Assembly: GCA_905182495.1 (NCBI GenBank)
Contig: CAJJBU010000003.1
Coordinates: 1-64,000 of the forward strand
Source: Flavobacteriales bacterium UBA952
GTDB lineage: Bacteria; Bacteroidota; Bacteroidia; Flavobacteriales_D; Crocinitomicaceae
Reading direction: 5' to 3'
DNA length: 64,000 nucleotides
Made by a program: the position numbers and the translations under genes
The notes under the pieces: model-generated
The model's input: the letters and a program-made list of their open reading frames with translations, nothing else
Told to the model about the DNA's origin: nothing
The model's database searches: none
Shown: piece by piece, positions 7,080 to 18,247 of the stretch
How positions within the stretch are numbered: the first letter of the stretch is position 1
Layout of the letters: each line of letters starts with the position of its first letter

Positions 7080-8198
7080 ATGCTTTTCCAAAACGTTATT
7101 GGGCAAAATGATTTGAAACAAAAACTTCTAAAAGAAGTTAAAGATCAAAAAGTAAGTCATGCCCAATTATTTACTGGCGACTCTGGTTTTGGAACTCTCC
7201 CATTGGCATTGGCATTCGCGCAATTGTTATTCTGTGAAGAACCAAAGGAAAACGATAGTTGCGGTGTATGTTCTTCCTGCATACAAGTTAAAGATTTGCA
7301 GCATCCAGATTTACATTTCAGTTTTCCGACCGTACAAGGAATCAGTAAGATCTCTGATGGACTGATTTCTGAATGGCGGGAGCAGATTAAAGAGATGCCC
7401 TATTTTTCGAGCTTCGATTGGATCAAACGAATTGACCCCAAAGAAGGTAATCCCATTATATCTGTTTTTGAGAGTAAAGAAATACAGCGAAAACTCCGAT
7501 TAAAATCATATCAAGGCGGATATAAAGTCCTGATTATTTGGATGCCTGAAAAAATGAATTCAGAATGCTCCAATAAGATTCTTAAAATACTAGAGGAGCC
7601 TCCCAAAAAAACCGTCTTTATTCTTGTCTCAGCGAATGCAGACCTACTAATAGAGACGATAAGATCAAGGTGCCAAGTTGTTCAATTGCCACGCATCAAA
7701 AATGACACGCTTTCAAGTCACCTAATGAAGGTGTTTAAGATCAGTGAAGAAAAGTGCAAATCAATCACCGCTTTTTCTGAAGGTAATTTAATTAGGGCTA
7801 TGGAGGTTGCAGAGACCCAGGATGGTGAAGAAGCACTAAAAGATGCCTTTATTACTCTTATGAGATCTAGCTATAAAAAGAATGTTATTGAAATGATGAA
7901 TTGGGCGGATTCAATGGCAAAAGAAGGGAAAGAACGTCAAAAAATATTCTTAAAATACACCTTGCATATGCTCCGCCAATGTCTTGTAAAAAATTATATG
8001 GGGGATGAACTTGTCCAAGTTTCAACTGAAGAAGCTGATTTTATATCCAAGTTCTCACCGTTCATCTCGGGCAACAATATTCGAGAATTTATGAAGGCAT
8101 TTGATGAAGCATTTTACCAATTAGAAAGGAATGCAAATTCTAAAATCCTATTTACCTTGCTTTGTTTTCAATCAATGCGTTATCTTCACAAACAATGA
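7080..8198 (+). CDS. holB: DNA polymerase III delta prime subunit
   Basis: Clamp-loader subunit that helps to open and load the sliding clamp. The 372-residue protein begins FQNVIGQNDLKQKLLKEV and SHAQLFTGDSGFG, the usual start of delta prime and DnaX proteins. The phosphate-binding loop is degenerate (GDSGFGTLPLA without the GKT), as expected for delta prime, which does not hydrolyse ATP. A zinc module follows (cysteines in LLFCEEP and CGVCSSC), then KILEEPPKKTVFIL and the SRC-type motif IRSRCQVVQLPRI. The C-terminal half is the helical collar domain. It leads a tight unit with ricT, gldH and a DUF6495-like gene. Confidence 0.93.
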   Translation: MLFQNVIGQNDLKQKLLKEVKDQKVSHAQLFTGDSGFGTLPLALAFAQLLFCEEPKENDSCGVCSSCIQVKDLQHPDLHFSFPTVQGISKISDGLISEWREQIKEMPYFSSFDWIKRIDPKEGNPIISVFESKEIQRKLRLKSYQGGYKVLIIWMPEKMNSECSNKILKILEEPPKKTVFILVSANADLLIETIRSRCQVVQLPRIKNDTLSSHLMKVFKISEEKCKSITAFSEGNLIRAMEVAETQDGEEALKDAFITLMRSSYKKNVIEMMNWADSMAKEGKERQKIFLKYTLHMLRQCLVKNYMGDELVQVSTEEADFISKFSPFISGNNIREFMKAFDEAFYQLERNANSKILFTLLCFQSMRYLHKQ

Positions 8199-14959: not shown

Positions 14960-15745
14960 ATGTATCGGATTCTTTTTTTATTTATTTGTTTTAGTATATG
15001 CGCTTCTTCATGTAAAAAGAAAGGGTGTACAGACACAGCAGCGGAAAACTATAACACAAATGCAACGGACGATAACGGAAGTTGTAGCTATACACAAGTA
15101 TTAAAGATAAATATCAATCCCCTTTATGGGAGTGACAAACTTTTTTTAGATTCAATTTATACCAGTCAGGAAGGTTATCAGGTAAAATTTTCACAACTCA
15201 GTTTTTATCTTACCTCATTAAACAATGATCAGGACACACTTAAAACTGCAGCACTATATGATTACCGAATCAAGGGTGTTGAGCTTCTAGAAACTACAGG
15301 TGATTATACTAAGTTCTCTAATTTAAACGGAATAATTGGGCTTGATTCAATTAGCAACCATAGCGATCCATCGGGGTTTGACAACTCAAGTGATTTAAAC
15401 ATAAGTAATGCGGGACTGATGCATTGGAGTTGGAATACAGGATACATATTCCTCAATATAGAAGGGAAAGTGGACACATTGGGCACCGGGGTATTTGACC
15501 ATAATTTCAGCTTTCATATTGGGACAGACGCTTTTAGAGGCAATTTCAATTTCTCAAATTTAAATTGGACTTTATCCCATGAAAACGAGCATTCTCTAAA
15601 CTGGTCACTGGATCTTTTTGAATTTTTAAATGGTGATTCAAACCCAATCGATTTAAAAGATGAGTTTATTACGCATACCTCGAGTAACCAATTAGTACTT
15701 GCTGGAAAAGTAGCCGTGAATTTCAAGAATGCACTCATTCCCTAA
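14960..15745 (+). CDS. mbnP: MbnP family lipoprotein
   Basis: MbnP-like proteins are secreted beta-rich proteins that are oxidised by a partner di-haem enzyme (MbnH); in methanotrophs the pair belongs to copper homeostasis. The 261-residue protein has a lipoprotein signal (MYRILFLFICFSICASSC), then a short two-cysteine module (GCTDTAAENYNTNATDDNGSC) common in secreted Bacteroidota proteins, then the MbnP domain with LFLDSIYTSQEGYQVKFSQL, FYLTSL and MHWSWNTGYIFLNIEGK. The start is the ATG at 14960 because the upstream TTG at 14951 adds nothing to the signal. It is followed after one base by the di-haem peroxidase gene, the usual MbnP-MbnH pairing, which makes the assignment firm. Confidence 0.85.
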   Translation: MYRILFLFICFSICASSCKKKGCTDTAAENYNTNATDDNGSCSYTQVLKININPLYGSDKLFLDSIYTSQEGYQVKFSQLSFYLTSLNNDQDTLKTAALYDYRIKGVELLETTGDYTKFSNLNGIIGLDSISNHSDPSGFDNSSDLNISNAGLMHWSWNTGYIFLNIEGKVDTLGTGVFDHNFSFHIGTDAFRGNFNFSNLNWTLSHENEHSLNWSLDLFEFLNGDSNPIDLKDEFITHTSSNQLVLAGKVAVNFKNALIP

Positions 15746-15746
15746 C

Positions 15747-16823
15747 ATGAAAGCAGTTTTATTTTTTTTATTGGGTTCCTTTATTTTTTTTTCTTGTAGA
15801 AAAGAACAAGTGGAATATATCACTACCCCTTACAACCTTGCGATTCCATCACATTTCTCTCAAATGAATATACCATTGGATAACCCGATGACTAAAGAAG
15901 GGGTAGAATTAGGCAGGTATCTTTTTTACGACACGAAATTAAGTGGCGACAACACCATGAGCTGTGCGAGCTGTCACCAACTTAATAGTGCCTTCGCTGA
16001 TAATGTAGCGAAGCCTTTTGGGATTGACGGCATTGCCGGAACGAGGAACACAATGCCCCTATTTAATCTCGGGTGGGATGATTTCTTCACCTGGGATGGG
16101 AGAAAATCGAGTCTAGAAGAACAAATTTTAGAACCTGTTCCAAACCCGATTGAAATGCATATTGAATGGAAAGATGCTGTCGAAAAGCTACAGCTAGATG
16201 TCTATTACCGAAATGAATTCTTTAAAGCTTTTGGAGAGGAAGGGATTGACTCAAGCAAAGTAGCAAAAGCTATTGCTCAATTTATAAGAACCATAATCTC
16301 CTCATCTTCAACATTTGATGTGATGTATAAATTTGAAAACGGATTAAGTTTATCTAATCTAGAAAACCAAACATTGCAAAATATAGAACCCGAAACTTGG
16401 GCCGGATATGACCTATTTAAGAGTTTAAACGGGGCAGATTGCTTTCATTGCCACAATGGTCCATTAATGCGTGTGAAAAAATTTAGTAACAATGGCTTGG
16501 ACCTTTCCTTTGCGGACAGCGGCCGAGCGCTTGCTTCTATGAACCCCGAAGATATAGGCAAGTTTAAGGTTCCCTCCCTGCGAAATCTATCCGCGACAGG
16601 CCCATACATGCACGATGGTCGATTCAATACTTTAGACGAGGTTATAGAGCACTATTCAAGCGGTGTTCAGCAGAGTTCAACTATAGACCCATTAATCGAA
16701 TACGCGAATCAAGGCGGAGTGCAGTTAGACACTGAAGAAAAGCAATGGCTAAAGAAATTCTTACTTTCTTTGAACGATACCATTTTCATTAATAATCCTA
16801 ATTTTGAGGATCCATTCAACTAA
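15747..16823 (+). CDS. mbnH: MbnH-like di-haem cytochrome c peroxidase family lipoprotein
   Basis: This belongs to the MauG/cytochrome c peroxidase superfamily. The 358-residue protein has a lipoprotein signal (LLGSFIFFSC) and two CxxCH haem sites, CASCHQ near residue 75 and CFHCHNG near residue 235, spaced as in the family. It also shows AFADNVAKPFGIDGIAGTRNTM and the late VPSLRNLSATGPYMHDGRF. I start it at 15747, one base after the mbnP stop; the longer ATG at 15729 lies within mbnP. The tight pairing with an MbnP gene suggests it oxidises a tryptophan of that partner, as reported for MbnH, rather than working as a plain peroxidase. It is the second gene of a four-gene unit. Confidence 0.87.
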   Translation: MKAVLFFLLGSFIFFSCRKEQVEYITTPYNLAIPSHFSQMNIPLDNPMTKEGVELGRYLFYDTKLSGDNTMSCASCHQLNSAFADNVAKPFGIDGIAGTRNTMPLFNLGWDDFFTWDGRKSSLEEQILEPVPNPIEMHIEWKDAVEKLQLDVYYRNEFFKAFGEEGIDSSKVAKAIAQFIRTIISSSSTFDVMYKFENGLSLSNLENQTLQNIEPETWAGYDLFKSLNGADCFHCHNGPLMRVKKFSNNGLDLSFADSGRALASMNPEDIGKFKVPSLRNLSATGPYMHDGRFNTLDEVIEHYSSGVQQSSTIDPLIEYANQGGVQLDTEEKQWLKKFLLSLNDTIFINNPNFEDPFN

Positions 16824-16825
16824 TC

Positions 16826-18247
16826 ATGGAAGCTACAATAAGACATTTAACCACAGAGGAAAAAGCCCTTAAAATAAATCTCCAAACTGACATTTATGGT
16901 TGCTTTGCTGAAATAGGTGCAGGCCAAGAGGTTGCAGCAAACTTTTTTAAGGCAGGGGGTAGCTCAGGAACGATAGCATTCACGCATTCCGCTTATGACA
17001 TGAAGGTATCGGATGCCATGTATGGAAAAGCCAAAAGATATGTTTGCGAAGAACGCCTTCAGACCATGCTTAATACAGAGTTTTCAAGTCTAAAAAACAC
17101 ATTACCCAATAAATATAAAGAATCTAAATTTTTTGCTTTTTGCAATACGGTTGAATCTCTGAACTATCATAAAACGAACCAAGGTAAAGGTTGGGTTGGC
17201 TTACGTTTTCAGCTCAATAAGCAGCGTGAGCCAAACAATGCGATTTTACATGTCAAGATGCATGACAATAGTCATAAGGGACAGCAAGAGGCTCTTGGTA
17301 TTCTTGGGGTGAATTTAATTCACTCATGTTACCATAGATATAATGATATTGATGAATTCCTCGACAACTTAATGCATAGAATTCCACGTGACCGTATTGA
17401 AATAGACATGCTTAGTTTAACAGGGCCTGACTTTAGTACAATCGACAATAGGGTTATTGCACTTAACCTTGTCAAGAGAGGGATCACGGACGCAACCATG
17501 TTTGACCTTGCTCGAAATGTTTTGCAACCCACTACAGCATTGTATAAAAAGAATATTCTTTTGACCAGAGGAAGATTTAGACCTGTAACTAAGGTTCATA
17601 TCGATATGATTGAAAATGGTCGAAAAGCTTTTTCCAAAGAAAAAGAAGTTCAAGAAGATAATGTTTCAGTAATATTCGAATTGACCTTGAAAGACCTTAC
17701 TGCTGATGGGAAAATTTCAGTTCAAGATTTCTTGGATAGAGCGGATTTATTAAGCTCATTGGGATATACAGTTATGGTTTCAAATTACTTGAAACATTAC
17801 AAGATGGTTGAGTACCTTGCGCCGATTGCAAAAGGTAATCTTATCGGTGTTATTCTGGGAGTATACAACCTAAATACAATTTTCGATGAGCGCTACTACG
17901 ACAATCTCTCTGGGGGACTGCTAGAGGCATTCGGACGAGGTTTTGGTCCAAACATGAAGCTATACGTATACCCTGCCTTAAATGTTGAGGATGGAGAGAT
18001 TTATGACCTAGACAACATTGAAATCGCACCTAATCTTATGGGCCTATTGCAATACATGAGGGAGAACGATAAAATAAAACCTATTCTTGAATTTGACCCA
18101 AAGCTTTTACATATCATGTCTGACGATGTTCTTTCTAAGATTAAAGCAGGTGCCTCAAGCTGGGAAGAAGATGTGCCAGAATCCGTTGCTAAAGCGATTA
18201 AAGCATTTGAACTATTCGGTTACCACAAAAAAGCTGTTAAAGCATAA
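16826..18247 (+). CDS. Conserved Bacteroidota protein of unknown function (473 residues)
   Basis: A soluble protein with no signal peptide or membrane segment. The N-terminal IYGCFAEIGAGQEVAANFFKAGGSSGTIA is a strong conserved block that I recall from Bacteroidota proteins sometimes labelled TonB-dependent receptor or nicotinate-nucleotide adenylyltransferase. Neither label fits: there is no beta-barrel and no nucleotidyltransferase HxGH motif. Other conserved-looking stretches are NILLTRGRFRPVTKVHIDM near residue 240 and FGRGFGPNMKLYVYPALN near residue 370. It starts 2 bases after the MbnH-like gene and its stop TAA overlaps the ATG of the WYL regulator gene as TAATG, so it is translationally coupled to the regulator. 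Confidence 0.8.
   Translation: MEATIRHLTTEEKALKINLQTDIYGCFAEIGAGQEVAANFFKAGGSSGTIAFTHSAYDMKVSDAMYGKAKRYVCEERLQTMLNTEFSSLKNTLPNKYKESKFFAFCNTVESLNYHKTNQGKGWVGLRFQLNKQREPNNAILHVKMHDNSHKGQQEALGILGVNLIHSCYHRYNDIDEFLDNLMHRIPRDRIEIDMLSLTGPDFSTIDNRVIALNLVKRGITDATMFDLARNVLQPTTALYKKNILLTRGRFRPVTKVHIDMIENGRKAFSKEKEVQEDNVSVIFELTLKDLTADGKISVQDFLDRADLLSSLGYTVMVSNYLKHYKMVEYLAPIAKGNLIGVILGVYNLNTIFDERYYDNLSGGLLEAFGRGFGPNMKLYVYPALNVEDGEIYDLDNIEIAPNLMGLLQYMRENDKIKPILEFDPKLLHIMSDDVLSKIKAGASSWEEDVPESVAKAIKAFELFGYHKKAVKA

Follow-up and report, generated by a model that had tools for sequence, protein, structure and literature searches.

A conserved MbnP-MbnH gene pair in a Crocinitomicaceae genome and its relatives across Bacteroidota

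The window analysed here, a stretch of 64,000 nucleotides from Flavobacteriales bacterium UBA952 (Crocinitomicaceae), carries an MbnP-MbnH gene pair at positions 14960-16823, and this pair is a conserved, co-inherited cassette. Probably, MbnH makes kynurenine at Trp156 of MbnP and so completes a Cu(I) site, with which the lipoprotein would hold or pass on copper. The features of the two genes are listed below.

14960..15745, + strand: MbnP-family lipoprotein, A-type of the genus, 261 aa (PF20243 match, 7l6g-like model)
15011..15013, + strand: Cys18 of MbnP, presumed lipid-modified (invariant in 16 of 16 aligned A-type orthologues, at least 90% in 49 rows; lipobox by eye)
15023..15085, + strand: GCTD..A.NYN..AT.DDGSC insert, from lipobox to MbnP domain (by eye, also in L085, L086, L091, L094 and L106)
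15747..16823, + strand: diheme lipoprotein enzyme of 358 aa, MbnH family within the MauG/bacterial cytochrome c peroxidase superfamily (PF03150, TIGR04039, 6e1c)
15963..15977, + strand: CASCH, first heme-binding motif of MbnH, residues 73-77 (all 92 canonical partners share Cys73, Cys76 and His77)
16440..16454, + strand: CFHCH, second heme-binding motif of MbnH, residues 232-236 (Cys232, Cys235 and His236 likewise shared by all 92)

The MbnP frame starts with ATG at 14960 and ends with TAA at 15743-15745, and the MbnH frame runs from ATG at 15747 to a stop at 16823. The single base between them, 15746, agrees with the spacing given in an earlier note on this DNA; an in-frame ATG upstream at 15729 is an alternative MbnH start, which would replace the gap by an overlap with MbnP. 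With a G+C content of 0.378, the pair hardly differs from the window as a whole (0.376). The family identities proposed in that note were also confirmed. PF20243 (MbnP) matched the first protein with an E-value of 7.6e-17 and 62.3 bits, above the Pfam gathering cut-off of 27, and PF03150 (CCP_MauG) matched the second with an E-value of 3e-50, over its cut-off. Among NCBIfam models, TIGR04052 (MbnP_like_WxW) was the best for MbnP, yet it failed its curated cut-off of 140 with 24.1 bits, and TIGR04039 (MbnH family) was the best for MbnH (E-value 3.9e-71, 239.8 bits), with the curated cut-off of 362.85 not reached. As the latter cut-off was exceeded in just 3 of 198 sampled Bacteroidota genomes, it is poorly informative on function in the phylum. 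A PDB search with MbnH placed 6e1c first (E-value 2.2e-41), ahead of all peroxidase structures; this entry, deposited as 'Di-heme enzyme', we take to be MbnH of Methylosinus trichosporium. Comparison with locus L110 (FRAM18_bin190), which is 76% identical to the window, gave dN/dS values of 0.084 for MbnP and 0.042 for MbnH, indicating purifying selection.

Lipoprotein signals on both products, claimed earlier, were recognised by eye rather than with a predictor, in the N-termini MYRILFLFICFSICASSC and MKAVLFFLLGSFIFFSC. The cysteines of MbnP are confined to positions 10, 14, 18, 23 and 42, and the domain itself has none; the four-Cys motif known from the deposited name of 7l6g is therefore absent, and the link between this motif and TIGR04052 is drawn from that name. 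The Cys-bounded NYN..AT.DDGSC insert occurs in a subset of the genus, and a similar segment lies N-terminally in the MbnP-like protein of L213 and the second copy of L214. Two CXXCH motifs per MbnH were found in all 178 pairs.

The pair is widespread. PF20243 MbnPs were detected in 51 of 198 Bacteroidota genomes (50 over the cut-off), and MbnH-model matches at an E-value of 1e-20, a threshold that also picks up other peroxidases, in 93. Every one of the 51 MbnP genomes held an MbnH-model match, vs 42 of the 147 others (Fisher p 7e-22, counts by eye). At the gene level, 69 of 70 MbnPs in the phylum sample (69 PF20243 matches over the cut-off and one tandem copy from a model of our own) had a same-strand MbnH no more than 900 bases downstream, two tandem MbnP copies with MbnH one gene away being included in the 69. 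The lone exception was L211, with the motif YWTPWQSY. The suggestion that this might be a wider Bacteroidota system thus held as to spread but not as to novelty: passages of PMC3621798 put MbnP/MbnH-type pairs outside methanobactin operons in print in 2013, so the pair in the window is not a new system.

At loci of the window type, MbnH lay directly 3' of MbnP in 80 of 80 cases (the best 80 of 147 confirmed). According to the earlier note, close relatives that lack the pairing would refute its reading; none was seen for the window locus, whereas other copies in the genus do occur single-partnered. Peptide patterns including MHW[GS]W served to find these 80 loci, which builds part of the motif conservation among them into the selection; many also come from genomes of the genus sample, and the two sets are therefore interdependent. 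For 108 non-redundant pairs, patristic distances of the two proteins correlated with r 0.905, the maximum in 500 permutations being 0.129. The MbnH tree did not conflict with 49 of the 52 supported MbnP splits and reproduced 35 of them exactly. Because related sequences are not independent, this congruence reflects co-inheritance and is not proof of contact.

Within the genus, MbnP (E-value 1e-3) and an MbnH-model match (E-value 1e-15) were each present in 61 of 61 examined genomes. Counting fragments, 4 genomes had one MbnP match, 29 had two, 26 had three and 2 had four. The genome of the window carries three pairs on one contig: A in the window, B at C3:356894 and C at C3:198655. Each has WxW (MHWSWNTGY, MYWTWQSGY and MYWGWSFGY, respectively). 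Their enzymes fall in three separate deep groups of the MbnH tree, each with enzymes of other Bacteroidota families, which indicates old paralogous cassettes and not recent duplicates. A fourth MbnH of this genome (L010, 8073-8849) is truncated and relic-like, with the first heme part missing, and begins directly after a tRNA-Arg (7978-8052).

Several features of the other copies were recorded alongside. The gene after the B-type pair of the window's genome (L008, 10391-11854) encodes a YHYH-domain protein (PF14240) that carries a T9SS sorting tail. Long C-terminal tails were seen on C-type or C-like MbnPs of L009 (8308-9267), L063, L068, L215 and L217; TIGR04183 scored above its cut-off in the last four and slightly below it in L198. 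T9SS sorting of the third MbnP in the window's genome was considered and rejected, with no TIGR04183 match in that copy (G000) or in L210. One MbnP followed by two tandem MbnH genes was observed at L215, L216, L217, L218, L235 and L236, and four of the six distal enzymes have CFHCH as second heme motif, like MbnH of the window.

By coordinates, 14 of 148 MbnP matches in the genus lacked MbnH. Eleven of them were inspected (the rest are G211:C39, G213:C82 and G241:C35). An MbnH frame cut by the contig end was present at L190, L192 and L193, and MbnP itself was cut in this way at L191, L195, L197, L199 and L209; L194 ends in an inverted stretch resembling MbnP, apparently a misassembly, and L196 is a fragment. 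A real solitary MbnP-C, with WxW intact and no MbnH downstream, was found at L198 (1844-2950, G237), a genome with an MbnH on another contig. Among the fetched loci, 22 apparent cases of missing MbnH were discarded as a threshold artefact, the frames overlapping by more than 60 bases and each locus having an MbnH match, and L014, which appeared unpaired in the co-phylogeny and 205-frame sets through a similar overlap, is paired by coordinates.

Conversely, 16 of 150 listed MbnH matches lacked MbnP. Six of them are orphans (L200-L205), one is the relic-like copy described above, three lie close to contig ends (L206, L207 and L208), and six more make up the rest. The orphans are C-type MbnHs with no adjacent MbnP match, from G245, G235, G203, G239, G217 and G241. 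In L200, L201, L203 and L205 the enzyme comes straight after a methyltransferase, where the window's genome has MbnP-C; L202 and L204 were checked solely for the missing MbnP match. Phe83 differs in four of the six orphans, and the other near-invariant positions are kept. An MbnH without linked MbnP in six genomes would suit an enzyme that is chiefly an H2O2-detoxifying peroxidase, for which MbnP would donate electrons or act as scaffold and Trp oxidation would be incidental, and the superfamily does take in classical cytochrome c peroxidases. One-to-one pairing and congruent trees argue against this, as do the best NCBIfam fit to TIGR04039 and the rank of 6e1c above all peroxidase structures, and we regard such a role as very improbable.

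We then return to the preferred reading, for which the site in MbnP is central. Its predicted residues are as follows.

15419..15421, + strand: Met154, predicted Cu(I) ligand and only Met of mature MbnP (at least 90% of 35 rows; opposite Met of GMAWNW in 7l6g)
15425..15427, + strand: Trp156, first Trp of WxW and predicted kynurenine site (35 of 35 rows; retained in proteins whose second Trp has shifted or disappeared)
15431..15433, + strand: Trp158, second Trp of WxW (35 of 35 rows; moved or missing in the f7 group and most GGGYH members)
15515..15517, + strand: His186, predicted Cu(I) ligand (35 of 35 rows; opposite VHVG of 7l6g)

A PDB search with the single MbnP sequence gave no match up to an E-value of 1. 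A profile of 35 diverse MbnPs retrieved 7l6g as the sole sequence up to that value (E-value 1.7e-5), an entry titled MbnP from Methylosinus trichosporium whose PDB names include 'Metallo-mystery pair system four-Cys motif protein', and its alignment set GMAWNW and VHVG of 7l6g opposite M154-W156-W158 and H186. The AlphaFold model of MbnP, built with 49 rows, had a mean pLDDT of 91.3 and a pTM of 0.81. In a Foldseek search with it, the six 7l6g chains were the only matches with E-values up to 0.001 (1.2e-5), and VIA-align superposed 197 residues on 7l6g with Z 15.8 and an rmsd of 3.2 at about 14% identity in the fold alignment. The next entry had Z 3.6; entries below Z 4, transthyretin-like and others, were not accepted as kin.

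MbnP of the window has four Trp (156, 158, 203 and 215). G127, W156, W158, G161, G169 and H186 were invariant, and M154, Y162 and G188 conserved at the 90% level, in a 35-row alignment with identities to the window down to 16%, whose rows were drawn mostly from best-scoring loci and are thus biased upward in conservation. Met154, Trp156 and His186 were kept in 49 of 49 A-type rows, in part by construction since these loci were found with patterns over the same residues, and Trp203 was invariant there. Judged by alignment, HWSW (residues 155-158) is the WxW motif of the MbnP family. We predict Met154 and His186 to be copper ligands from the MbnP copper site, in which WxW is preceded by a Met at position -2 and followed further on by a His; M154, W156, W158 and H186 reproduce this pattern. 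In a PNAS paper of 2021, Manesis and colleagues reportedly identified the first Trp of WxW as the residue that MbnH turns into kynurenine, and His and Met as the ligands of Cu(I). By analogy, we infer that MbnH, a predicted periplasmic diheme lipoprotein, would oxidise Trp156, the first Trp of MHWSW, to kynurenine using a peroxide-level oxidant; that Met154, His186 and the modified Trp156 would form a Cu(I) site; and that the copper-loaded MbnP lipoprotein may hold copper or hand it on at the cell envelope.

The two Trp of MHWSWNTGY had been put forward together as targets. The motif is real, but its two Trp are not equal candidates, as variation in the family indicates. Among the 70 MbnPs of the phylum sample, weaker matches included, 54 had MxWxW, 4 had WxW without Met and 12 lacked WxW, the last being 5 GGGYH, 4 W..W and 3 other proteins (2 of these weak tandem copies). 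MbnH was nearby for 11 of the 12, so the enzyme can be retained without its canonical target. In a wider redundancy-reduced set, WxW was present in 190 of 205 MbnP frames. A first motif survey (WxW in 107 of 108) was set aside as it overstated conservation, being seeded with the motif and drawn mostly from best-scoring loci, and the figure of 178 of 178 in the pair set carries the same best-scoring-locus bias. In family f7, the second Trp is shifted and the first unmoved in the motifs YWVPW, YWEAW and YWSGW, all of them beside MbnH, and L216 (FWGPTTRY, MbnH adjoining) has the first Trp alone; in all, the first Trp was retained and the second lost or moved beside MbnH at L216, L214, L220 and L221. 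Of the two, the first Trp therefore varies less, in line with the reported MbnP chemistry, and Trp156 appears the likelier target of MbnH than Trp158, with the alignment of shifted motifs somewhat doubtful.

The most divergent motifs belong to a GGGYH subfamily. A model of four members found 8 of 395 genomes at E-values below 1e-50, the four included, and MbnH adjoins MbnP in all 8 (L240-L247, with MbnP within about 1084-2274 of each). In place of WxW these proteins carry segments such as MEWPVAMGGGYHYM, SWNVPEMLGGGYHFM or SFNVPAMLGGGYHYM. The segment contains no Trp in L241 and L242, so the known product cannot form there, and L246 still has WNW; MEW of L243-L245 and MLW of L247 are ambiguous as to which Trp they align with. 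All 8 passed PF20243, six with 68.9 to 126.8 bits, G103 (L240) with 104.4 and G013 (L244) with 114.3. The MbnPs form one clade (SH-aLRT 99). Their MbnHs occupied two places on the best tree, a single clade not being rejected (p 0.25), and four of them (family f6) were sister to the MbnH clade of the window with support of 91. Near-invariant MbnH positions were intact in 8 of 8 partners, and the Trp of an EWF/NQWF segment was seen by eye in all 8 MbnPs.

Such proteins bear on whether MbnH modifies MbnP differently, at Trp 158, 203 or 215 or to another product (N-formylkynurenine, a crosslink), for a different metal or none. The 12 of 70 sampled MbnPs without WxW, 11 with MbnH near, would fit this, as would the invariant Trp203 in 49 A-type rows and the GGGYH group, which keeps MbnH with 2 of 8 members devoid of a motif Trp. 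The A-type rows, in contrast, all share Met154, Trp156 and His186 (partly by construction) with the solved MbnP, and we judge a different modification unlikely for the pair in the window. A broader conjecture, which we advance tentatively and hold to be rather doubtful, is that the cassette is a general builder of oxidised-residue metal sites beyond the conversion of Trp to kynurenine at WxW. It would comprise several ancient Bacteroidota lineages, three of them in this genome, some with the target Trp moved or lost and MbnH kept; GGGYH proteins might then carry another modified residue, such as the Trp of EWF/NQWF or the Tyr of GGGYH.

The earlier statement that no methanobactin genes are near was upheld for the MbnB family: MbnB/TglH/ChrH (PF05114) had no match at an E-value of 1e-3 or better in the whole genome (G000, 85% complete), MbnA being too short to exclude. 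Copper genes were sought beside the window locus and none was found. The neighbours encode a UvrD-like helicase, a WYL regulator, an enoyl-CoA hydratase and a hydroxyacyl-CoA dehydrogenase (WYL assigned by a match, the others by eye). The order UvrD(-)-MbnP-MbnH-x16826-WYL recurs, with UvrD in 77, x16826 in 77 and WYL in 71 of 80 loci (the best 80 of 147, some ending early). The named relatives behind these best 80 loci are all metagenome-assembled, and the nearest are Bacteroidota, chiefly with titles of Flavobacteriales or Crocinitomicaceae. The gene directly 3' of MbnH (16826-18247), present in 77 of the 80 related loci, encodes a 473-aa protein without a Pfam match. Elsewhere in the genome, 5 SCO1-family matches (3 strong) and 4 plastocyanin-family matches point to likely users of periplasmic copper.

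The predicted copper flow may be read as acquisition, which the preferred reading assumes, or as storage. A pair serving storage or detoxification of excess copper, and not uptake of scarce copper, would share the chemistry of the preferred reading and differ in purpose. MbnPH-like genes lie in operons with diverse copper-homeostasis genes according to passages of PMC9426467 (2022), whereas CorA and MopE, of similar chemistry, are described as copper-repressed in parts of PMC3912023; we consider the excess-copper purpose possible, if somewhat unlikely. Weighing against the preferred kynurenine-copper cassette as a whole are the non-copper neighbours, the TIGR04052 score, the missing domain Cys and the WxW-less MbnPs with MbnH.

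Comparison with known systems places the pair closest to Methylosinus trichosporium MbnP (7l6g) and MbnH (6e1c). The gene pair, the fold, MxWxW, the aligned His and the diheme partner are common to both; unlike that system, the pair in the window lies away from methanobactin genes, encodes lipoproteins without domain Cys and scores below the cut-offs of TIGR04052 and TIGR04039. CorA/CorB of Methylomicrobium album and MopE/SACCP of Methylococcus capsulatus likewise pair a copper protein of the surface or envelope with a peroxidase-like diheme enzyme, and have kynurenine near Cu(I) in a two-His site, as set out in parts of PMC3912023. The site there consists of Kyn62, His64 and His114, whereas MbnP of the window has Met154, Trp156 and His186 with a further Trp at +2; a Met and His site with Trp at +2 is MbnP-like, not CorA-like. 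As to a relation to MopE or CorA, the PDB profile search with 35 MbnPs up to an E-value of 1 gave 7l6g alone, a missing match being no exclusion. MauG, which acts on methylamine dehydrogenase, is also a diheme enzyme of the MauG superfamily acting on Trp of a partner, as predicted for MbnH of the window. The present enzyme, however, scored 159 bits with TIGR03791, far under the MauG cut-off of 443.85, and its partner is MbnP, not an amine dehydrogenase.

Our literature searches, which were of limited coverage and support no claim of absence from print, met no paper on Bacteroidota MbnP variants; within that scope, two points are apparently new, namely the multi-copy state across the genus and the MbnPs that lack WxW yet are linked to MbnH. 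The finding would extend the kynurenine-copper system of methane-oxidising bacteria to aquatic Bacteroidota, with the gene pair in every examined genome of one genus. It also provides a natural series, in which the second Trp is lost, both are lost or MbnH stands without linked MbnP, that is ready for testing which residue is oxidised and how far each MbnH is confined to its own MbnP.
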